Below are positions 5,400 to 21,952 of a stretch of 21,952 bases of DNA, piece after piece (position 1 is the first letter of the stretch; every line of letters begins with the position of its first letter). The notes beneath the pieces were generated by a model, which was not told where the DNA came from, did not search any database, and was given only the letters and a program-made list of their open reading frames with translations. The DNA lies in IMG/VR virus record IMGVR_UViG_3300023281_000840, positions 1 through 21,952 of that record; one strand, written 5' to 3'. Origin of the DNA: a virus. The position numbers and the translations under genes are program-made.

Positions 5400-5475
5400 G
5401 CACCTGTAGCTCACCTGGTAGAGCACGACCTTTGTAACGTCGGGGTAAGAGGTTCGAGTCCTCTCAGGTGCTCCA
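5400..5475 (+). tRNA. tRNA-Thr (anticodon TGT), with encoded CCA
   Basis: A full cloverleaf can be drawn. The acceptor stem is GCACCTG (5400-5406) with CAGGTGC (5465-5471), all 7 pairs. The D stem is GCTC/GAGC. The anticodon stem is CGACC (5426-5430) with CGTCG (5438-5442), and the loop TTTGTAA puts TGT at 5433-5435, reading ACA threonine codons. The variable loop is 5 bases. The T arm AGAGG-TTCGAGT-CCTCT is canonical. The discriminator is T and CCA is encoded at 5473-5475. The last anticodon-stem pair is a C-C mismatch (5430/5438). The G1-C72 and C2-G71 pairs fit known threonine tRNA identity elements of Escherichia coli. Confidence 0.93.
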
Positions 5476-5476
5476 C

Positions 5477-5644
5477 ATGAAACGACACGGATTTACGGCG
5501 GAACTCCCTCCCCGTGACTCTAACAGGTCCAACCCCAGGCTACCCGGTGAAGAACTGGGATTGTCTCCTGTGGGCAAACAGCAAATCAGGGAGATCTACG
5601 CAGCGGACATCGTCCTTTGGGAAGCCGCAGAGAAGTTGGAGTAG
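5477..5644 (+). CDS. Small hypothetical protein starting directly after the tRNA
   Basis: A 55-residue protein (MKRHGFTAELPPRDSNRS at the start; GKQQIREIYAADIVLWEAA near the end) with a charged, Pro-rich N-terminus and an amphipathic C-terminal helix. ATG 5477 begins one base after the tRNA CCA. The only ribosome binding site is AGGTG at 5466-5470, which is part of the tRNA acceptor stem. The stop TAG 5642-5644 lies 4 bases before the next gene. Codon composition and the continuous charged-helix pattern support coding. No family is recognised; it is the first gene of the rightward cluster. Confidence 0.7.
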   Translation: MKRHGFTAELPPRDSNRSNPRLPGEELGLSPVGKQQIREIYAADIVLWEAAEKLE

Positions 5645-5648
5645 CAGA

Positions 5649-6116
5649 ATGCCCCCAGGAAGAGGATACAAAGCCAAGCCAGGTGAGACGGGTCCGAACG
5701 CTCGCACGAGGCGTGTAACGAAGGTCGCTCAGGGAACGGGCGACAGCGGGATCTCCCGTGGGGCCGCACGCAGGTTGATTAAGTCCGGTGCCGCTAAGAC
5801 GGGTCCGACGAAGAAAACTCGTACGGTTTCCCGCATCGCCGCGGGGAAGGGCATCTCTCGACCTGCCGCAAACAAAATCAGAAAACAGCGCAAGGCCAGG
5901 GCTGGGAATAACCTGACTCGAGGCAAGTCTGGCAAGGCCAAGAACCCGAAGGCCATTGCAGCGATCATGAAGACCAAGACCAACACGAAAAAGACGGGCA
6001 CGCGCAAGACCCGCACCGTGTCGCGCATCGCGGCCAAGAAGGGTATCAGTCGCAAGGCTGCTAACAAGATCCGCCGACGTCGCAAGGCCGCTGGCACACT
6101 CAGGCTCAGCAAATGA
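5649..6116 (+). CDS. Very basic DNA-binding-type protein with three HTH-like repeats
   Basis: A 155-residue protein dominated by Lys, Arg, Ala, Gly and Thr. Three related segments lie at about 19-49, 57-83 and 120-147. The second and third share KTRTVSRIAA-x-KGISR-x-AANKIR; the first is more diverged (RVTKVAQG ... GISRGAARRLI). The unit resembles a minimal helix-turn-helix of the resolvase type (IA..-GIS-R..A...I). Basic, probably disordered linkers join the units. A role in condensing or organising phage DNA, or in transcription control, is plausible but inferred. ATG 5649 is chosen because GGAG lies 7 bases upstream; the open frame to 5514 overlaps the preceding gene. The stop overlaps the next start (ATGA 6113-6116). 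Confidence 0.85.
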   Translation: MPPGRGYKAKPGETGPNARTRRVTKVAQGTGDSGISRGAARRLIKSGAAKTGPTKKTRTVSRIAAGKGISRPAANKIRKQRKARAGNNLTRGKSGKAKNPKAIAAIMKTKTNTKKTGTRKTRTVSRIAAKKGISRKAANKIRRRRKAAGTLRLSK

Positions 6117-10341: not shown

Positions 10342-12477
10342 ATGGGCCTCTTCCGGCAACCACCGCACCAACCACAGCCGATACGGAAGGTCCCTACATC
10401 GGGGCCTGCCAATATCAGCCGTACGACTACCGATGGCATTGATTTCGCTGACAGTGCTTCTCGAGTCGGTACGTTTGTGCGCTCTGTGGCAGATGCCCTT
10501 GGTTTAGCTGATGTTGCTACTAGGACTGGTGCGTTTGTTCGTACGGCGACAGACGGAGTCTCGCTTTCTGATGTAGCGACCAGGGTTGCCGGTGCGATGA
10601 GGACTGCGACCGATGCTGTCGGTCTTGCAGATGTCGCCACTCGCACAGGTGCCTTTGCAAGAACTGTCGCAGATGCCATTAGTCTCTCTGATGTCGCGAC
10701 GAGGATATCAGACCTGTTGCGCACAGCGGCAGATACCTTGTCCCTGTCAGACGTGGCTACCCGTGCCGTAGCAACTGCTAGATCAGCAACAGATGCCATT
10801 AGTCTGAGCGATGTAGCAACCAGGTCTGTAGGGGCCATGCGGTCGGCTACTGATGCCATTAGTCTGAGCGATGTAGCAACGCGCGTCCTCGCAGCCCTTC
10901 GTACAGTTGCTGATGCCATTAGCTTGTCAGACGCAGCCGTCGCCATCAAGGGCGGTCTTACACGAACCGCTACTGATGCTATCAGCTATAGCGATGTTGC
11001 CACTCGGCAGGTTGCAGCGATACGTTCGGCCGTAGACAGCCTTAGTCTATCAGATGCAGCTGCTCGCGTTGGGGCATTTGTGCGAACAGCGGTTGATACC
11101 TTGAGCCTCTCAGATGTTGCGACCAGGGTTGTTGCATTTACCAGTACTGTGGCTGACACCCTGAACCTTTCAGATGCAGCTACTCGAGTATTCGCTGGTA
11201 CCCGCTCTGTTGCAGATAGCATCAGCCTTTCTGATGCGGCAACTCGCGCTGTAGGCGCTATGCGCTCTGCGGCTGACTCTATCAGCCTTTCCGATGCGGT
11301 GACCCGCGTTTTAGCGGCTCTACGTTCTGTGACTGACTCCATCAGTCTATCAGACGTGGCAGTTGGGGTCAAGAATGCCGGTGCTGATTATATCAGAACG
11401 GTTGCAGACGCCATCGGTCTAACTGATGTGGCCACTCGCACTGGTGTGTTTGTTCGATTTACTACAGCTGGTACTGAAGTACTGTCTGCCACTGGACGCA
11501 GCTCTTCGGCTAACTTTGGTAAGACGGCACCAGTTGGGGAATTTGCCGCACAGTCCTTTGTCCCGACAGCGGTCTCTACTCTTACTGAATTTTCATGTTG
11601 GATGTCGAAGAACAATTCTCCGACCGACGATGTCATTATCGAAATTCAGACAGATAATACGAATGAGCCGTCTGGTAGCGTTGTAGGCACCATTGAACAA
11701 TTCGATGGCTCAACATTAGGCGCTGGTGCCACTCGTACGTCCCTTCCGTCTATTGCCTTGGTTGGCGGTGTGAAGTATTGGGTCGTATGGCGTCGTAGTG
11801 GCGCATTAAATGATACTGACCATTATGTCGTTTATATGCAAACACCATCGACTTATGCAAGCGGTGTTGCTGCTCGATATATCAACAGTGCGTGGACGCT
11901 TCTAAGCGACTTGTATGATGTTGAGTTTTCGGCTACATTTATACAGGGTGATAGTATTAATTTCTCAGATGTGGCTACTAGGATACTTGGCAGCCTGAGA
12001 ACTGCCGCTGATACCCTAAGTCTCTCTGACGTAGCCACACGGGCGTTGGGCACATTAAGAACTGTCGCTGATGCGATTGGGCTGTCGGACGTGGCGACAA
12101 GAACAGGCACATTTGCCAGAACTGTCGCTGATGGCATTGATTTGTCAGAGTCCATTGCTACCGTCAAGGTGTTATCACGTACCGTTGCAGACACCCTTGG
12201 TCTATCAGATGCAGCTACTCGAGTTTTAGGGCTTGCCCGCACGACGACAGATGCGATTAGCCTCAGCGATGTAGCGACGAGGCTCGCTGGTTTCGTGAGA
12301 TCGACTACAGATGCCATTACGTTTACAGACGTCGCACTATTCCTTAAGACGGGCGTCTTCGCGGCACTTACGACGTTCGTGCATTCTGCCACTCGGCTGC
12401 TGACATTTACACATAGCGCCACCGAATTGGAGACTTTCGTAGAGGAAGTCACCGAAATCGAAACGACAGTGGAGTAA
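10342..12477 (+). CDS. Tandem-repeat fibre-like protein with a globular insert
   Basis: A 711-residue protein. After a Pro-rich N-terminus (residues 1-26) come 17 repeats of about 20 residues (27-371), consensus R-[ST]-x-x-D-x-[IL]-x-LSD-x-ATR with a variable hydrophobic tail. Repeat 9 has 21 residues and repeat 16 has 24. Residues 372-534 break the pattern with a beta-rich domain (AQSFVPTAVSTLTEFSCWM ... IEIQTDN ... VKYWVVWRR), resembling a carbohydrate- or surface-binding sandwich. One partial, five full and one partial repeat follow (535-671). The last 40 residues contain shorter HSAT-[RE]-L repeats and an acidic end. GGAG precedes ATG 10342. The regular repeats suggest an elongated fibre or solenoid on the virion, with the insert as a binding head; this is inferred. 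Confidence 0.93.
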   Translation: MGLFRQPPHQPQPIRKVPTSGPANISRTTTDGIDFADSASRVGTFVRSVADALGLADVATRTGAFVRTATDGVSLSDVATRVAGAMRTATDAVGLADVATRTGAFARTVADAISLSDVATRISDLLRTAADTLSLSDVATRAVATARSATDAISLSDVATRSVGAMRSATDAISLSDVATRVLAALRTVADAISLSDAAVAIKGGLTRTATDAISYSDVATRQVAAIRSAVDSLSLSDAAARVGAFVRTAVDTLSLSDVATRVVAFTSTVADTLNLSDAATRVFAGTRSVADSISLSDAATRAVGAMRSAADSISLSDAVTRVLAALRSVTDSISLSDVAVGVKNAGADYIRTVADAIGLTDVATRTGVFVRFTTAGTEVLSATGRSSSANFGKTAPVGEFAAQSFVPTAVSTLTEFSCWMSKNNSPTDDVIIEIQTDNTNEPSGSVVGTIEQFDGSTLGAGATRTSLPSIALVGGVKYWVVWRRSGALNDTDHYVVYMQTPSTYASGVAARYINSAWTLLSDLYDVEFSATFIQGDSINFSDVATRILGSLRTAADTLSLSDVATRALGTLRTVADAIGLSDVATRTGTFARTVADGIDLSESIATVKVLSRTVADTLGLSDAATRVLGLARTTTDAISLSDVATRLAGFVRSTTDAITFTDVALFLKTGVFAALTTFVHSATRLLTFTHSATELETFVEEVTEIETTVE
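10420..11454 (+). repeat. 17 tandem 60-bp coding repeats
   Basis: This DNA encodes the first block of 20-residue repeats. Codon usage has drifted, so most copies share only part of their bases. Copies 7 and 8 retain the same run GATGCCATTAGTCTGAGCGA, about 60 bases apart, which suggests recent copying. There are no spacers, so this is not a CRISPR array. Such tandem arrays can change copy number by recombination or slippage. Confidence 0.9.
11944..12354 (+). repeat. Second block of 60-bp coding repeats
   Basis: One partial, five full and one partial copy of the same 20-residue unit resume here after the 163-residue insert, in the same reading frame. The third full copy is degenerate (GIDLSESIATVKVLS), as are the ends of several copies at the block borders. 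Confidence 0.85.
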
Positions 12478-14685: not shown

Positions 14686-15039
14686 ATGGGAACTTTTGCT
14701 GGCGCGTCTGAGGCCTATGGCCTGCCCCTAAGTTTCATCCATCCTGTCGATAACGACTTCGCGTTGGCCAGGTTCAATTCGCTCCTGCTTGACCCACGTC
14801 TAGGGCTGACCGATCAACAGAAACGAGATATCCAAGCCGAGATCGACGACCTCGCTGGTCTTGGGAAGCTTGCACGGGAGAAAGCCATTGCCAACATCCT
14901 CAAAGAGGAAAGCAAAGCCACTACCGCAGCTCAGCCCCGCTTCACACAAAAGCAGCGTAGACGACGGGCCAGACGACGCGAAGCGGCGAAGCTCAGGCGC
15001 CTCGCAGCAGCCAGGCGCAAGCGACGAGCCAGTAGCTGA
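14686..15039 (+). CDS. Hypothetical protein with very basic C-terminus
   Basis: About 117 residues from ATG 14686 (MGTFAGASEAYGLPLSFIHP). The frame is open from 14647, and a GTG at 14668 with GAGG upstream is another possible start. Residues about 20-80 are helical (ARFNSLLLDPRLG, QQKRDIQAEIDDLAGLG, EKAIANILKEES). The last 30 residues are almost all Arg, Lys and Ala (KQRRRRARRREAAKLRRLAA). It overlaps the large terminase frame by about 150 bases, unusual for this compact but short-overlap genome. Codon composition favours this frame up to about 15000. It may be a DNA-binding packaging accessory, or the 5' part of a frameshifted terminase product. Confidence 0.65.
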   Translation: MGTFAGASEAYGLPLSFIHPVDNDFALARFNSLLLDPRLGLTDQQKRDIQAEIDDLAGLGKLAREKAIANILKEESKATTAAQPRFTQKQRRRRARRREAAKLRRLAAARRKRRASS

Positions 15040-16519
15040 TCTTCTCCGTCGTGGGGAGAACTTCGTAGTTTGGTGTGAGGAGATCCTGGGGATCAAACTG
15101 AACCCCGCACAGCACAGGATCGCCAGGTGCATCAATGGCGATGCTGACCATCATGTACGTGATTGGGCCTTTAAGACCCTAGTGGTTGTGGCCGCTAACC
15201 AGATCGGTAAAACTCTAATCCAGGCGTGCATGATCTTGTGGGCCATGAACTATAAGATCGGTGTTGATGACAGAAATCCTGAAGAGTGGTTAAACGCGAA
15301 TTACCTGTGGATACATCTTGGGCCAGTCCAGCAGCAAGCGTACCATGCCTTCAAGGACATGAACCAAATCCTAAAGAACGCTCACCCGGCGCAGAAGAAC
15401 TCAAGGCTCCCTGGTGGGTTATTCGAGAAGATCAAGATTGAACAATATTACGAAGGCGTACAGTGTTGGAACGGCGCACAAGTCATGTTCCGTACAGCAG
15501 AGAACAAGGGTGAGGCGGTTCTTGGTTACAAGGCTGCAGGCATCAGCGTCGATGAGGCTGCGTTCGTTCGAGGCTTGACCTCAGAGGTCAATGAGGTCCT
15601 AAAGATGCGCCTCGTTTCCACTGGCGGGCCGATCATGTTGTTCAGCACTCCGAATGGTATGAATGACTTCTTTGACGCAATGGACGCGATCAAGTCTGTA
15701 GACCACAGGGTTGAGGACATGATCTGGCACAATGGCGACTCACGACTCGTGTGGGCCACTATTGCTGATAACATCGGTTATGGCATCTCTGAGAAGGAAG
15801 CCAGCCGTATGGAACACGAGCTGAATGTCGCAACGAAGGAGCAGCAGCTCCGTGGAGCCTTTCTTGAGCCACTTGAAGCCTTCTTTGTTCCCCAAGCCAA
15901 GATCATCGAAGCCTTCGACAAGGCGCTACCGACCGAAGTTCGCCCAGTCCCCGGCCATCTTTACGCCATCTTCTGGGACCCCTCCCTGGCCTCAGACCCG
16001 ACCGCCGTCGTTGTCTTAGATGTCACATACAAACCCTGGATTGGCGTGTACTTTAGATGGTACGAACGACCGCTCGACATCACCGCTCTGACCGGAGCTA
16101 TCTTTCAATTACACGGAGACTACCATAACGCAAAATCGGACAACCGGCTGTCAACCCCATCTCACGGCGTCACTGGGTTCGATGCGACCTCGATGGGTGG
16201 AGCTGCCGTCAAAGGGCTACTGGCCCCTCTCAACCCAAAACGCCCAGTCAACTTTGGGGGAAATGCGCTCAAAACCCCAAGCCTTACCAACCTTCGAGAC
16301 TTACTTACCAAGGGCGACATCAAGCTACCAGGAGACTGGCTGCGACTGAGACAGGAACTCCTGAATTATAAGCTCAAGGATGAGTCGATCAAGCAAGATA
16401 CGGTGATGGCGCTCATGGGCTGTAGCATCGTGGCACGAAATATGACAATCGGCCGATCGGCTCAGAAGTTCGACGTCAGTGGGACCCGAGCACCGAAGAA
16501 ACAACTACGTTGGAATTGA
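14888..16519 (+). CDS. terL: Terminase large subunit (ATPase and nuclease)
   Basis: This is the motor that pumps DNA into the prohead at the portal and cuts the concatemer. Counting from an upstream TTG at 14861 (552 residues), AANQIGKT (111-118) is Walker A, GISVDEAAF (228-236) holds Walker B D231 and catalytic E232, and FSTPNG (261-266) is the coupling motif. The RNase H-like nuclease domain follows, with acidic residues D373 (FWDPS), D441 (GFDATS) and D513 (QDTVMAL). There is no in-frame ATG near the N-terminus. TTG 14888 has GGGAG 7 bases upstream and is preferred (543 residues). The first 50 residues are polar and overlap the preceding basic ORF. Both active sites look intact. The portal gene follows 8 bases after the stop. 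Confidence 0.95.
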   Translation: MPTSSKRKAKPLPQLSPASHKSSVDDGPDDAKRRSSGASQQPGASDEPVADLLRRGENFVVWCEEILGIKLNPAQHRIARCINGDADHHVRDWAFKTLVVVAANQIGKTLIQACMILWAMNYKIGVDDRNPEEWLNANYLWIHLGPVQQQAYHAFKDMNQILKNAHPAQKNSRLPGGLFEKIKIEQYYEGVQCWNGAQVMFRTAENKGEAVLGYKAAGISVDEAAFVRGLTSEVNEVLKMRLVSTGGPIMLFSTPNGMNDFFDAMDAIKSVDHRVEDMIWHNGDSRLVWATIADNIGYGISEKEASRMEHELNVATKEQQLRGAFLEPLEAFFVPQAKIIEAFDKALPTEVRPVPGHLYAIFWDPSLASDPTAVVVLDVTYKPWIGVYFRWYERPLDITALTGAIFQLHGDYHNAKSDNRLSTPSHGVTGFDATSMGGAAVKGLLAPLNPKRPVNFGGNALKTPSLTNLRDLLTKGDIKLPGDWLRLRQELLNYKLKDESIKQDTVMALMGCSIVARNMTIGRSAQKFDVSGTRAPKKQLRWN

Positions 16520-16527
16520 GGATTTAG

Positions 16528-18462
16528 ATGGCAGAACTTGATTTGGGCTCCTTGCTCAATGAGATCGCGACTTCAGACCGTATGGTCGCCGCGCAGGCTC
16601 GCGTCCGCTTCGAGTCATCTGAGTCCTACCAGGCCCGCATTGTCCAGAAAATGCAAGATCTGCATCATTTCTACCATCCCCAGGACGGTGACCATTGGCC
16701 TTCTGATAAGGCTAAGCGACCCGGCAAGGTGCACGTTACCGCAAACCTTGTCAAGGCCGCCGTGGACGTGGACTCCCGACTCCAGAGCGTCATGCCACGC
16801 ATTACGATCCCGACCGCCACACTTCCGCCTGCAACACGCCTGCGCGCAGAAGGCGCAGAAGCCATGGTTCTGCAATGGCTGGAAATGTCTGGCATTGATG
16901 TATGGCTGAATGTACTCTGCCAGACCAAGAGCTTGTATGGGAAGGGCATCCTCCGACCATACTGGGACGCAGAACTCGAGCGTCCTGACGTGACTGTGGT
17001 TGAAAATCCCGCGAACCTACGACTAGGTTACACAGACAGCGACTACACTAAGCTCGACTGGAGCATCTACGAGTACAGTATCAGCCAGCTCGAGGCAAAG
17101 ACTCGCTGGCCCGATATTGATATCCACGCTAGTCCCGACCCGACTGGACCGCCCCTCGTGCGTGTCGGCGGCGCAGACCACGCAGACCCACTCGACCAAC
17201 GAGTAGATGACTTCTACAAGCCGCGCTTCCGAGAATACAGTGAGTACGAACACAATCAACTCCGGGTATGGGATTACTGGTATCGCGGTGAAGGTGGAAC
17301 AGTTACTAACGCCATTCTTGCCAACGGCGTCATCGTAAATGGACCTCATGCCCACGATTATATTCCCGATATTCCGTATATCGTCATTGAGAATGACCAC
17401 GAGCCAGGTAATCCCGAAGGAGTTGCGACCGTTGAGCCGATCATTGATATCCAGGAAGAGTTTAATCGTCTTCTGTCCCATGGCCTCCAGCACATTGCAG
17501 ACGACGTTGATCCAGCATGGTTCCTAACTGGGCCGAGTGCCGATGCGGTACCACCGGGGCTGATCCCCAAGGCCGGGAAAGTTGTCGGTGCAGGAGAGAA
17601 CGACATCAGGTTGATCCCCAAGGGGGTCAATGTGTTCCCGATCAGCGAGATGCTTGGCGAACTGTGGAACGGCTTCCACCGCCTTACTGGGCTCCCGGAA
17701 ATCTTGTTCGGTCAAACACCGGGTGCGGATACATCGGGCCGCGCTGTTGCAATCCAGGTAGAGGCTGCTGCTAACCGCCTCGATCCTCGTCGCCGCCGAC
17801 TATACCAGGGCATCAAGGAACTCCTGATCTTCTGGGTCATCATGACGGAACATAAGAACCCGTCAGTTGATATCGGGGACAGTGAAGACGGCACACCACA
17901 GACAGCGAAGCTTGGCGATCTCGTCAAGGGCTTCAAGTCGTGGAAGATCGTCGCGCCTGAGATTACACCGAGAGACTCCTTCGAGGTCACTAACAACGAA
18001 TTGGCCAAGGTTCAAGGCAAGCTTACCAGCATCCGTGATGCTATGGACGCTACCGGCGTCGAGGCCCCTGAAGCCACGCTGGACGTTATTCGCAGCGAGC
18101 AAGCCGATATCGATCTTAACCCTGGCGCGGTGCAGGCGAAGGTTAGTATCTACCCGATCCTTCAACAAGTCCTCCAGCAACAGGCTGAGATGGGTCAGCA
18201 ACTCCAGCAGTTGACAGGACAGTCTGGTGGCCCACCGCAGTCGATCCTGGCGCAAAGCCAGTCCGCAGTAAACGGCCAACAGGTAGCCCTGCAGGCTCAG
18301 GGTCCGGCCGCACCACTGGAAGACCAGAACCTTCCGCCTACCGCCGCTGGCAGCCCGCCACCCCCAGGAGCGCCTGGTCCGGGTGGGGCGCAAACTCAGA
18401 CAACGTTGATCCGTGACGGTCAGGCCCTAAACCAGATCGCTACGAACACACCACTCGGATAG
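16528..18462 (+). CDS. Portal protein
   Basis: A 644-residue protein directly after the large terminase, at the canonical portal position. Family-like features are the N-terminal helical start with YHPQDGDHWPSD, NLVKAAVDVDSRLQSVMP, a mid-protein stem/wing region (IIDIQEEFNRLLSHGLQ; GELWNGFHRLTGLPEILFG), and SGRAVAIQVEAAANRL around residues 400-420 before a long helix DPRRRRLYQGIKELL. The last 100 residues are low complexity: Gln-rich (LQQVLQQQAEMGQQLQQL), then Pro/Gly-rich. Portals form the dodecameric ring at one capsid vertex, through which DNA enters and leaves. GAGGAT precedes ATG 16528. The disordered tail is longer than in minimal portals. Confidence 0.92.
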   Translation: MAELDLGSLLNEIATSDRMVAAQARVRFESSESYQARIVQKMQDLHHFYHPQDGDHWPSDKAKRPGKVHVTANLVKAAVDVDSRLQSVMPRITIPTATLPPATRLRAEGAEAMVLQWLEMSGIDVWLNVLCQTKSLYGKGILRPYWDAELERPDVTVVENPANLRLGYTDSDYTKLDWSIYEYSISQLEAKTRWPDIDIHASPDPTGPPLVRVGGADHADPLDQRVDDFYKPRFREYSEYEHNQLRVWDYWYRGEGGTVTNAILANGVIVNGPHAHDYIPDIPYIVIENDHEPGNPEGVATVEPIIDIQEEFNRLLSHGLQHIADDVDPAWFLTGPSADAVPPGLIPKAGKVVGAGENDIRLIPKGVNVFPISEMLGELWNGFHRLTGLPEILFGQTPGADTSGRAVAIQVEAAANRLDPRRRRLYQGIKELLIFWVIMTEHKNPSVDIGDSEDGTPQTAKLGDLVKGFKSWKIVAPEITPRDSFEVTNNELAKVQGKLTSIRDAMDATGVEAPEATLDVIRSEQADIDLNPGAVQAKVSIYPILQQVLQQQAEMGQQLQQLTGQSGGPPQSILAQSQSAVNGQQVALQAQGPAAPLEDQNLPPTAAGSPPPPGAPGPGGAQTQTTLIRDGQALNQIATNTPLG

Positions 18463-18471
18463 GGGAAGCAC

Positions 18472-21400
18472 ATGCCGCAACGTTTCGGACAGCGCACTGA
18501 CTCGAGTCAGAACTTCGCCTACCTCGCACGCAACAACGCCCTTGAGATTAGAGACCGTTCGCGTGCGGTTGATCGTGCTCGTGAAGAAGAGCAGGCTGCT
18601 AAAGATGCAGAGATGTTCACTCGTTACAACGAGGGTAAGATCAGTGGTCAGGCGATCCTGCAGTATATTAAATCCCGTGTTGCGGCCACGGGATACGACA
18701 AGGCGCAGCAGTCGAAGTGGAAGGCTGCCCTGGTCGAGTACACGAACAGCGTAGCGGACCAGAAGGCCGCTGCGGACTTTGAGAAGACTCAGAACCTTGG
18801 GGCCTACATTAACCACTGGCAGCAACGCCTGCGTGGGACCAAGCAAGGGACCCCTGAGCGCACTGAGATCCAGGCCCAGCTTCGCGAACTGAAGGATGCA
18901 CAAGACGCTAAGTCTGTACGTCGTCGTGCTATTGCCATCCAAAATAAGATCGCCTCTGGACAGGGGAACATTAAGGATCTGATCGACTTTTATCAGGGCG
19001 AGTTGGGCGATCTTCGTAATGGTTCTGCCTTAAAACTGAGCATTCGCGAACAGTTGGCGACATTAAAAACCCAGTGGCGTCAACAGCAATTCGATGTTGC
19101 AGAACAGAAGATCCGTACTGAACTCGGCGCTTCCCGCATTACCCCACAGCAGGCGGGGGAGCAACTCCGCAATTTGCTTGGTACGACGAACCTGGATGAT
19201 AGCAATCCGGCATTGTACCAACAGAAACTAGAGCAGGTACGCATCCTCAACGCTACGCCCGATCCTGCCGTACAGGCCAAGTTGACGTTGCTGCTGCAAA
19301 AAGGTAAGATCGGCAAGCAAGAGTACCTTGACAAGATGTACCGACTGGCCGACAAGATCGCGCCCTTTAGCAGCTCAGCCGCAGACCTTCTTCGCGCTAG
19401 CGCGCACGCTGATGTTCGGGACCTAGAGATCGCTCTGCCGGACCCTGGAGCATTAGGTCTTAAGGGTAGTGGAGTAGGCCATTCAGTCTTGTCAACTCAG
19501 ACTGGGATCAATCGAACTTTTAATCACACATATCAAATGGATGGCAGCCAGTTCAGTGCCAGCAATTGCACCATGGCCGCAGCTGCCATGCTCGCTCATA
19601 CGATGGGCACCAAGGGCCTCACTGGTGGCGAATTGCGTTTTGCATCAAAAGACCGCCTTGGCGGGACGACGCTCGTACAGGCCCAGTACGCACTCGAGAA
19701 AAAGGGCGTAACTGGCACTAATGCGCGTTATGAAAACCGCATTGAATTCGCTCAGTTCCAGCGCAACATTAAGCAGGGAGCACCTGCAGTCCTGTCAGGG
19801 TTCAACGGCAGTTTGCCTGGTGGCTCTAGCAGTAAGTACAATTCTTCAGGCGTCATTGGCGGCCATGCCATCTTCGTGGCGAAGTACAGCCCGCAAAAAG
19901 GGTTCTTCGTACTCGACCCCGCGAAGAGGAACGACAAGGGCCGTTGGTGGCCAGCCTCTGTGTTAGAAAAGTTCGGTTGGTCTGGCGTAGCTGGAGTCAA
20001 TTATCGCTATGGCCAGGCTTTGTTCGCTCCCCGCAACACTGTTGCCACGCGGTACAACGGGCTGACAACTGGTGGTACTGCCAAGACTCGCAGGAGCAAG
20101 GGCGGCAAGCGCGGTGGCGACAAGGCCGGTGGCACGATCCAGCATGTGTGGGTGGGCGCCCGTCCGTCTAATAGCGGCGACTCTGTACCAGAGACCTTTA
20201 TTGGTCAGTTTGCTCCAGGCTCACAACAGCCTGAAGTTACGGCCGCTGCCAAGATTGATGCTGAACGCAACGAAGAAACTCTGTCTAGTTCTGGGAATAC
20301 CATTCGGCTCGAGGATGCAGGCATTGCTGCTAGTATCGATACGATTGAAGAAGCTACTGACGAAATTGCCCGACGTAACCAAGTGTATGCTGAGACCTCC
20401 AGGGTACTTGAGAACTTTAGGGAAGCGTTGAACGCAGATCCCAGTGACGATGTGTGGACGGTTATGGTGGGCGCTGAAGAACAGCAACTCACGATGCAGG
20501 ACGTTACCAGCCTTGAACGGGAATTGATTTTCTTACTTGACGGTTCAGAGATTTTATCCGACGCTCTCGATGATATTCAGGGGATGGAAACCGCCCGTGC
20601 GTTGAAGGCCAAGGTCGTGAAAGACGGCAGTGGTGTCACGAATACGTCCTTTGAGTATGGGCTGAACGTTCTGACTAACAATCTGACCAGCGCCATGGCA
20701 AATTCTGGGTCAGATCCTGGTTCAGATTTAGACATTATTTCGGAGTTTTCTACTGACCTGCAAGAACATATTGCTGCCTACAATGCTGGTCCCATTGGCC
20801 CCGCGACTGAGGCCCAACAGGACGTGCAGGACATTGCCGTACCAGAGGGTGAGGCAGTAACGCAGGCCGATGCCTTAGTCCAAATCACCGAACTTTTATT
20901 GAATGGTGATATTACTCGTGAGCAACGGGTTCAGGATATTGGAATACTGGCAGAACAAGCTGGCATCTCATTGTCCGATGGCTGGGAAGTCGGCTCTAAT
21001 GGCGAGGATGGTCCCTTTAATCCAGGAGACAATTCTCTCGAGGCCATTATTAGTGGAGCAACCTTCACTGCTAACCAAAATCACATGGTAGAAAACGACG
21101 AAGGTGGATGGCTGTATGTCTCGTCTGGCGAGTGGGCTGGACAGATCGTGGCAGTGCCTTATCTCAACGGTCCACCGATCCCTGAACTAGACCCAGAGAC
21201 AGGTCAGGAAATTCCAATCCCACCACAATTTGCTGAACTCGACATGCAATACGCAGCGGAAATTTACAAGATAGATCTTACCGTAGCGAACAATCGATCC
21301 TCTAGTAATTTGCCAATGATTAAGGTAGATGTTGACGGCGAAGATGTCATCATGCGTGCCGTGCCGCGCACTGTTGCCTACCCTGGCATGACAGGTCTTT

Positions 21401-21952
21401 CTGTCGAAGACCCGGAAATCTATAAGGATTTGACTGGCCTAGACGCTCCCGACGGACCGTTCCTGTCTGGTACAGACATTGAAAATCTCATGACTCATGA
21501 TATCAAGAGTATGCTTGATAACCTTGTCAGCACTGGGGTCCTTGTAGAACACGAGTACATGGTGGACGTTATTACGACTCCAACCTGGATGAAGAATGGC
21601 GTACTACAACCTGGTCATACAGATGTGATCGATCCAGTTACGAAGGTACATCACCGCAATGCCCTACCAGGTATGCCTCCTATTTCTGGCAAGCCTCAAG
21701 TTGGTGGTATCGAGACTATCTTCGGTACGCAGTACGTTGGCACACAGATCAACATCCTGGGGCAACCAGAACCTAACTTGAATGAAGAAATGACATACGG
21801 CAATGAAGCCGGTCCGGGTCATGCGGCTTCGTTCGCTGGGAATATTTCCAGGGTATCCATGCAAGAGGACCTAGAGGCTGGGTTGCTAGGTGATAATTCG
21901 TTCCTGATCCGCGATGAGAACCTTGACGTTGTCAGGTACGAACCGTCCGACC
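18472..21952 (+). CDS. Giant virion protein with embedded papain/C39-like protease, 3' end outside window
   Basis: The frame opens at ATG 18472, nine bases after the portal stop, with GGGGAAG upstream, and stays open to the right edge (at least 1160 residues). Residues 1 to about 300 are charged and helical, coiled-coil-like (EEEQAAKDAEMFTRYNEG; QQQFDVAEQKIRTEL). Residues about 350-510 show a papain-fold peptidase layout: Q360 and C366 in SQFSASNCTMAAAAM, H465 in VIGGHAIFVAKY, D482 in GFFVLDPAK, as in C39-like peptidases. A Lys/Gly-rich linker (TRRSKGGKRGGDKAGG) follows near 535-550, then a long acidic, helical and beta-mixed region without recognised domains. It could be an internal (ejection) protein, a tail-tip or tape-measure-like protein, or a maturation polyprotein. 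The protease call is motif-based. Confidence 0.82.
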   Translation, partial: MPQRFGQRTDSSQNFAYLARNNALEIRDRSRAVDRAREEEQAAKDAEMFTRYNEGKISGQAILQYIKSRVAATGYDKAQQSKWKAALVEYTNSVADQKAAADFEKTQNLGAYINHWQQRLRGTKQGTPERTEIQAQLRELKDAQDAKSVRRRAIAIQNKIASGQGNIKDLIDFYQGELGDLRNGSALKLSIREQLATLKTQWRQQQFDVAEQKIRTELGASRITPQQAGEQLRNLLGTTNLDDSNPALYQQKLEQVRILNATPDPAVQAKLTLLLQKGKIGKQEYLDKMYRLADKIAPFSSSAADLLRASAHADVRDLEIALPDPGALGLKGSGVGHSVLSTQTGINRTFNHTYQMDGSQFSASNCTMAAAAMLAHTMGTKGLTGGELRFASKDRLGGTTLVQAQYALEKKGVTGTNARYENRIEFAQFQRNIKQGAPAVLSGFNGSLPGGSSSKYNSSGVIGGHAIFVAKYSPQKGFFVLDPAKRNDKGRWWPASVLEKFGWSGVAGVNYRYGQALFAPRNTVATRYNGLTTGGTAKTRRSKGGKRGGDKAGGTIQHVWVGARPSNSGDSVPETFIGQFAPGSQQPEVTAAAKIDAERNEETLSSSGNTIRLEDAGIAASIDTIEEATDEIARRNQVYAETSRVLENFREALNADPSDDVWTVMVGAEEQQLTMQDVTSLERELIFLLDGSEILSDALDDIQGMETARALKAKVVKDGSGVTNTSFEYGLNVLTNNLTSAMANSGSDPGSDLDIISEFSTDLQEHIAAYNAGPIGPATEAQQDVQDIAVPEGEAVTQADALVQITELLLNGDITREQRVQDIGILAEQAGISLSDGWEVGSNGEDGPFNPGDNSLEAIISGATFTANQNHMVENDEGGWLYVSSGEWAGQIVAVPYLNGPPIPELDPETGQEIPIPPQFAELDMQYAAEIYKIDLTVANNRSSSNLPMIKVDVDGEDVIMRAVPRTVAYPGMTGLSVEDPEIYKDLTGLDAPDGPFLSGTDIENLMTHDIKSMLDNLVSTGVLVEHEYMVDVITTPTWMKNGVLQPGHTDVIDPVTKVHHRNALPGMPPISGKPQVGGIETIFGTQYVGTQINILGQPEPNLNEEMTYGNEAGPGHAASFAGNISRVSMQEDLEAGLLGDNSFLIRDENLDVVRYEPSD

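Follow-up and report, generated by a model that had tools for sequence, protein, structure and literature searches.

A predicted papain-like cysteine peptidase as a plug-in module in an ejection-type protein of an uncultured podovirus-like phage

The window analyzed here comprises bases 1 to 21,952 of the virus record IMGVR_UViG_3300023281_000840, which has a length of 41,034 bases. It contains the genes for the large subunit of the terminase, the portal protein and most of a very large protein, designated X, which is followed in the record by the gene for a second giant protein, Y. The gene order terminase-portal-X-Y-scaffold-capsid is that of the window virus record and of two orthologous loci, L009/L011 and L010/L012. 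The features used below are as follows, with residue numbers referring to X of the window virus.

14861..16519, plus strand: terminase large subunit (PHROG 2, E = 3e-17; start codon uncertain)
16528..18462, plus strand: portal protein (PHROG 156, E = 7.7e-10; Pfam SPP1_portal, E = 6e-5, below the cut-off)
18472..21951, plus strand: protein X, directly 3' of the portal gene, 1160 codons up to the end of the window, where the frame is still open
18472..19239, plus strand: N-terminal region of X, residues 1-256, common to peptidase-less relatives (HMM)
19432..20031, plus strand: papain-like, C39_2-like peptidase domain, residues ~321-520 (PF13529, AlphaFold2 and Foldseek, alignment)
19534..19536, plus strand: Q355, invariant Gln in QxDG (three of three in the alignment), likely oxyanion-hole residue by inferred role
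19549..19551, plus strand: Q360, not conserved
19567..19569, plus strand: C366, predicted catalytic nucleophile, sole cysteine of X, invariant
19864..19866, plus strand: H465, predicted catalytic His in IGGHA (GH motif), invariant
19915..19917, plus strand: D482, predicted third catalytic residue in LDPA (DPA motif), invariant
20071..20133, plus strand: Lys/Gly-rich linker, about residues 534-554, window virus only and mostly a gap in both orthologues
22416-28304 of the record: protein Y, gene after X, 1,962 residues

Downstream of Y, a gene for a scaffold-like protein of 184 aa is followed by that for the major capsid protein of 315 aa (PHROG 1357, major head protein, E = 4e-37), and podoviruses, namely Pagevirus and Streptomyces Beephvirinae, are among its matches in annotated phages. 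Of the genes that follow the capsid gene, none was recognized as encoding a tape measure. The best reading of the window virus, which is uncultured, is that of a short-tailed, podovirus-like phage. Other parts of the window harbor a tRNA-Thr (TGT) gene (5400-5475, plus strand), a 200-aa open reading frame (ORF), a putative gene, that is very rich in Lys/Arg, has repeated TRTVSRIAA.KGISR..AN motifs and may encode a DNA-binding protein (5514-6116, plus strand), and a 711-aa ORF composed mostly of RTATDAISLSDVATR-type repeats (10342-12477, plus strand), which was without a match in a Pfam search and may encode a fibre- or surface-like repeat protein.

The gene for X is interrupted by an assembly gap of 10 N at positions 21953-21962 of the record, and the reading frame differs between the two sides of this gap. 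The run of N probably marks a scaffold join. On its far side, another ~150 aa can be read before a stop is reached immediately ahead of position 22416, and the true length of X is thus at least ~1310 aa. The orthologues at the same gene position have 1369 aa (L011:9044-13153) and 1333 aa (L012:9026-13027). X contains Gly-rich linkers. No membrane segments were predicted in X and mostly none in Y, and Pfam recognized the peptidase as the only domain of X.

A first-pass annotation of the DNA had placed a papain- or C39-like domain into the protein encoded after the portal gene, and the profile and fold searches bore this out. The Pfam model PF13529 (Peptidase_C39_2) covers residues 352-484 of X with positions 4-143 of its 143 (domain E = 1.2e-4) and matches all three orthologues independently, with a best E value of 9.4e-6. 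The window protein scores 23.1 bits with the isolated domain and 19.3 bits at full length, at a curated Pfam cut-off of 24 bits. The peptidase families C70 and C93, which had been named for such a profile search, gave no Pfam match. Peptidase C39 proper (PF03412, the leader peptidase of ABC transporters) was not matched in the window record and only weakly by one of the three members (E = 0.05). Pfam found no transporter domain together with the peptidase; a peptidoglycan-binding domain was not found either, and searches of the PDB by sequence yielded no meaningful match.

An alignment of the three carriers indicates that Q355, D357, N365, C366, H465 and D482 are invariant. The earlier proposal of Q360, C366, H465 and D482 as the catalytic set was correct for the last three residues but not for the first: Q360 is a Gly in L009 and a Glu in L010, and the invariant Gln is Q355 in the motif QxDGS.....NC, 11 residues before the Cys. 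The distance between Gln and Cys varies among C39_2-like enzymes. Q355 is likely to be the oxyanion-hole residue, and C366, H465 and D482, the latter two separated by 17 residues, form the predicted catalytic set. Whether Cys, His and Asp are conserved had been raised as a point on which the assignment might fail, and they are identical in all three proteins. These residues were placed as described in the region 19551-19926, but the domain is wider. Its identity to the window sequence is 49% in L009 and 40% in L010, compared to 37% and 33% for the region before the domain and 27% and 22% for the region after it.

A structural model of the domain was computed with AlphaFold2 from three sequences only and is of low confidence (pLDDT 54.8, pTM 0.64). 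Nevertheless, the order of its elements is that of papain: a helix bearing the Cys (model residues 42-57, with the Cys at 46), further helices and then strands adjoining the GH and DP motifs (H145 and D162 of the model). Papain-like proteins made up almost the entire set of the best 30 PDB matches in Foldseek, with a probability of 0.9-1.0 for most of the best 16. Phytochelatin synthase (2bu3) was the best of them, with the best PDB E value being 1.8e-3 and a TM score of 0.42; further matches were the C39 domain of ComA (3k8u/5xe9), the C39-like peptidase 3erv, staphopain, cathepsins, papain and the papain-like toxins 9l5u and 8ssk. The matches in a viral library were phage peptidases and “lysozymes”, LysA of mycobacteriophages, a hydrolase similar to phi29 gp13 and a tape-measure protein, and the phage matches with a named function were mostly lysins or peptidases. 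The PF13529 match in all three orthologues, the papain-like Foldseek matches and the residues that stayed invariant despite 22-27% identity of the C-terminal region indicate a resemblance beyond chance. That residues ~321-520 have the papain fold (clan CA) is nearly certain, and the domain is best described as a C39_2-like cysteine peptidase domain.

The same record encodes a second, free-standing papain-like protein of 281 aa (record 37300-38145; L002:1300-2145), with homologues at L003:15033-15812 and L028:1501-2358. LCRAA, H and IDPM are its conserved motifs, a long helix forms its C-terminal part, and its AlphaFold2 model (pLDDT 61) matches phytochelatin synthase with a probability of 1.00 and other papain-like enzymes weakly. 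A profile comparison of this protein with the peptidase domain of X was not significant.

Relatives of the window virus were reached via the capsid protein in the case of L009/L011 and L010/L012 and subsequently via a portal profile. Direct tblastn searches of 50,697 phage genomes with X or its peptidase domain produced no match, and neither did the peptidase domain, the portal protein and the terminase of the window when each was used singly to scan viral contigs, or a search of genome contigs with a profile of the peptidase domain. The portal profile found only two distant genome contigs, from Myxococcota metagenome-assembled genomes (MAGs) with 29-30% identity; both are without the peptidase domain and too distant for naming a host.

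Seven relatives possess a complete X of 843-1,017 aa that is N-terminally homologous but devoid of the peptidase domain. A profile of these seven proteins matched the N-terminal ~250 residues of the carriers (E = 5e-64 to 1.6e-33; residues 5-256 of the window protein, E = 1.6e-33) and also the C-terminal half of X from L010. At the site of the peptidase, five of the seven have a poly-Gly stretch (e.g., GSGGGGGGSA) and the other two shorter linkers; no Pfam domain was found in place of C39 in these X proteins, and the peptidase domain was not found elsewhere in the retrieved virus records. In the portal tree, the carriers form one side of a branch with a support of 100/99. When the tree was rooted with the two Myxococcota contigs, support for the carrier grouping fell to a poor 55/19, and the presence of the domain still required one change only. 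The peptidase is a plug-in domain that is present in one clade only. Since the outgroups are without it, gain is favored over loss, and the simplest scenario is that the domain was acquired once and then kept for long, with a direction that is not proven by the rooted tree.

The cysteine content of X and Y bears on the fate of these proteins. In each of the three carriers (X of 1160, 1369 and 1333 aa), the predicted nucleophile is the one and only Cys of X, and six of the seven X proteins without the peptidase are free of Cys. Y contains a single Cys in 17,419 aa across nine viruses, and that of the window virus is free of Cys. The ejection proteins of T7, P22, N4, K1E, Sf6 and P-SSP7 (L029-L034) contain only 2 Cys in a total of 12,802 aa, a roughly 40-fold depletion relative to the 92 Cys in 14,888 aa of the other virion proteins of the same six phages (Fisher p = 2e-22, from pooled counts that include related and thus not independent sequences). 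Other virion proteins of the window virus are also poor in Cys, about 4 in 2,512 aa, so that the contrast within this genome is weaker than that across phages. The near-Cys-free signature was derived in this analysis and is not a published criterion; X and Y display it. The virion RNA polymerase of N4 is likewise without Cys, which has been explained by its passage through the tail (PMC3915230).

The giant size of X and Y, their adjacency to the portal gene, the lack of a recognized tape measure and the lack of Cys together suggest that both are ejection proteins, and they are likely packaged in the head and ejected with the DNA. This is a likeness and not a family membership: X and Y did not match ejection-protein families in PHROG or Pfam, and no sequence homology to T7 gp14-16 or P22 gp7/20/16 was detected. 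A lone conserved Cys in an otherwise Cys-free, ejection-type protein argues for catalysis.

These observations can be combined into a scenario for the entry of the phage. X and Y would reside in the head and leave it together with the DNA, building an entry conduit. One clade would have gained the peptidase module in X, at the linker after the N-terminal helical region. Catalysis would be performed by C366, H465 and D482, with Q355 as the probable oxyanion residue, and the peptidase would most likely cleave wall peptides of the host where the phage enters, during formation of the conduit, with the lysozyme domain of T7 gp16 or K1E gp35 as a precedent for wall cutting. We assign a probability of about 50% to this reading as a whole, a DNA-entry protein that is ejected and uses its peptidase on wall peptides. 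Peptidoglycan as the substrate, taken by analogy, is about as likely as not. Wall-peptide cutting at entry had already been among the suggestions of the first-pass annotation; gene position and composition make it the favored role, but the substrate follows from analogy only. The viral fold matches to LysA, phage “lysozymes” and the phi29-gp13-like hydrolase were counted as support for a wall role.

Wall-hydrolase domains occur mosaically in ejection proteins (PMC8954989). T7 gp16 and K1E gp35 are, as X, giant podovirus proteins, Cys-free and equipped with a wall-hydrolase module in some relatives only, but this module is a transglycosylase or lysozyme and not a cysteine peptidase, their genes are located after the tail genes and not between portal and scaffold as those of X and Y, T7 gp16 has a membrane segment while none is predicted in X, and no sequence homology was shown. 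Virus-encoded C39-like domains associated with walls are the N5 domain of mycobacteriophage LysA (PMC3314691) and PeiR of the methanogen virus phi-mru, which hydrolyzes pseudomurein walls (PMC6189367); these are lysis enzymes, whereas X is a portal-linked, virion-type protein. With Peptidase_C39_2 (PF13529, clan CA papain fold) itself, the domain of X shares the order of Cys, His and Asp and the His-Asp spacing of 17, with a match over nearly the whole profile in all three orthologues, but its score is just under the cut-off, its Gln is 11 residues before the Cys, and it resides in a virion-type protein of more than 1,300 aa. A further known system for comparison is that of the Beephvirinae, Streptomyces podophages with a capsid protein homologous to that of the window virus: gp9 of Kumquat is a Cys-free protein of 1,644 aa encoded between the portal and major capsid genes, although similarity of its sequence to X or Y was not detectable and a peptidase domain was not found in it.

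Alternatively, the peptidase may be an effector that is ejected into the cytoplasm and cleaves host proteins there, such as defence proteins, RNA polymerase or chaperones, with its nucleophile being the single Cys allowed in an otherwise Cys-free ejected protein. Such a role has been proposed for the polyvalent proteins of phages. This main rival is less probable than the wall role, and the evidence for ejection applies to it equally. The module is clade specific, as host-targeting peptidases tend to be (PMC7824862), and the toxins 9l5u and 8ssk are among the fold matches. Y of L023 (L023:14940-19841) has at residues ~935-1009 a weak match to a GNAT acetyltransferase (E = 0.0014, below the cut-off), a typical polyvalent effector domain and possibly a plug-in enzyme module as well. 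Polyvalent proteins are, similar to X, very large, encoded near the portal gene, endowed with embedded enzymes and thought to be injected (Iyer et al. 2017, PMC5512222). However, their four listed peptidase superfamilies are zincin, assemblin-like, DD and LonC, with “papain” being absent (PMC5512222), and they carry several effector domains each instead of the one recognizable in X. Moreover, a linkage to effectors was not shown, and the predominance of lysins and peptidases among the named phage fold matches also speaks against an effector.

Self-processing, in which the domain would cut X or Y during assembly or ejection and release segments, is improbable. C39 peptidases cut after double glycines, which counts for this possibility in combination with the Gly-rich linkers of X. 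The Lys/Gly linker that had been proposed as the processing site, however, is missing in both orthologues, and the seven homologous X proteins manage without the domain. Slightly less probable still is that the domain is no peptidase but has another activity of the papain fold, that of an amidase, a transpeptidase or an acyl transferase; phytochelatin synthase as the best PDB fold match and the weak matches of two of the three members to PF05023 would agree with it, but C39_2 is the best Pfam match of the window domain and was matched by all three members, and the annotations of phage proteins with this fold are for the most part those of lysins or peptidases. A head-maturation protease, also considered in the first-pass annotation and compatible with the position of the X gene between portal and scaffold/capsid genes, was rejected as highly improbable, since the domain is absent from the seven relatives and not conserved with the head genes of the group, the scaffold-like gene is separate, as also downstream in L022 and L023, two of the seven relatives (in L022, the scaffold-like gene encodes 184 aa, and a gene for 305 aa occupies the place of the capsid gene), and the capsid protein aligns to its PHROG family from residue 4 on, leaving no room for a long pro-domain.

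Exchangeable modules that cut the cell wall are known from the ejection proteins of podoviruses, and those described in the papers cited here cleave glycans. By its sequence features, the domain in X represents a swappable enzyme module within an ejection-type virion protein, here a predicted cysteine peptidase, which would widen the range of tools brought in by a short-tailed phage. The domain of about 200 aa is a compact enzyme candidate for testing. A near-Cys-free composition may generally mark proteins that pass through the tail in a threaded form; it would then be a simple predictor of ejection for uncharacterized giant phage proteins and would rank the remaining cysteines of ejected proteins as functional.
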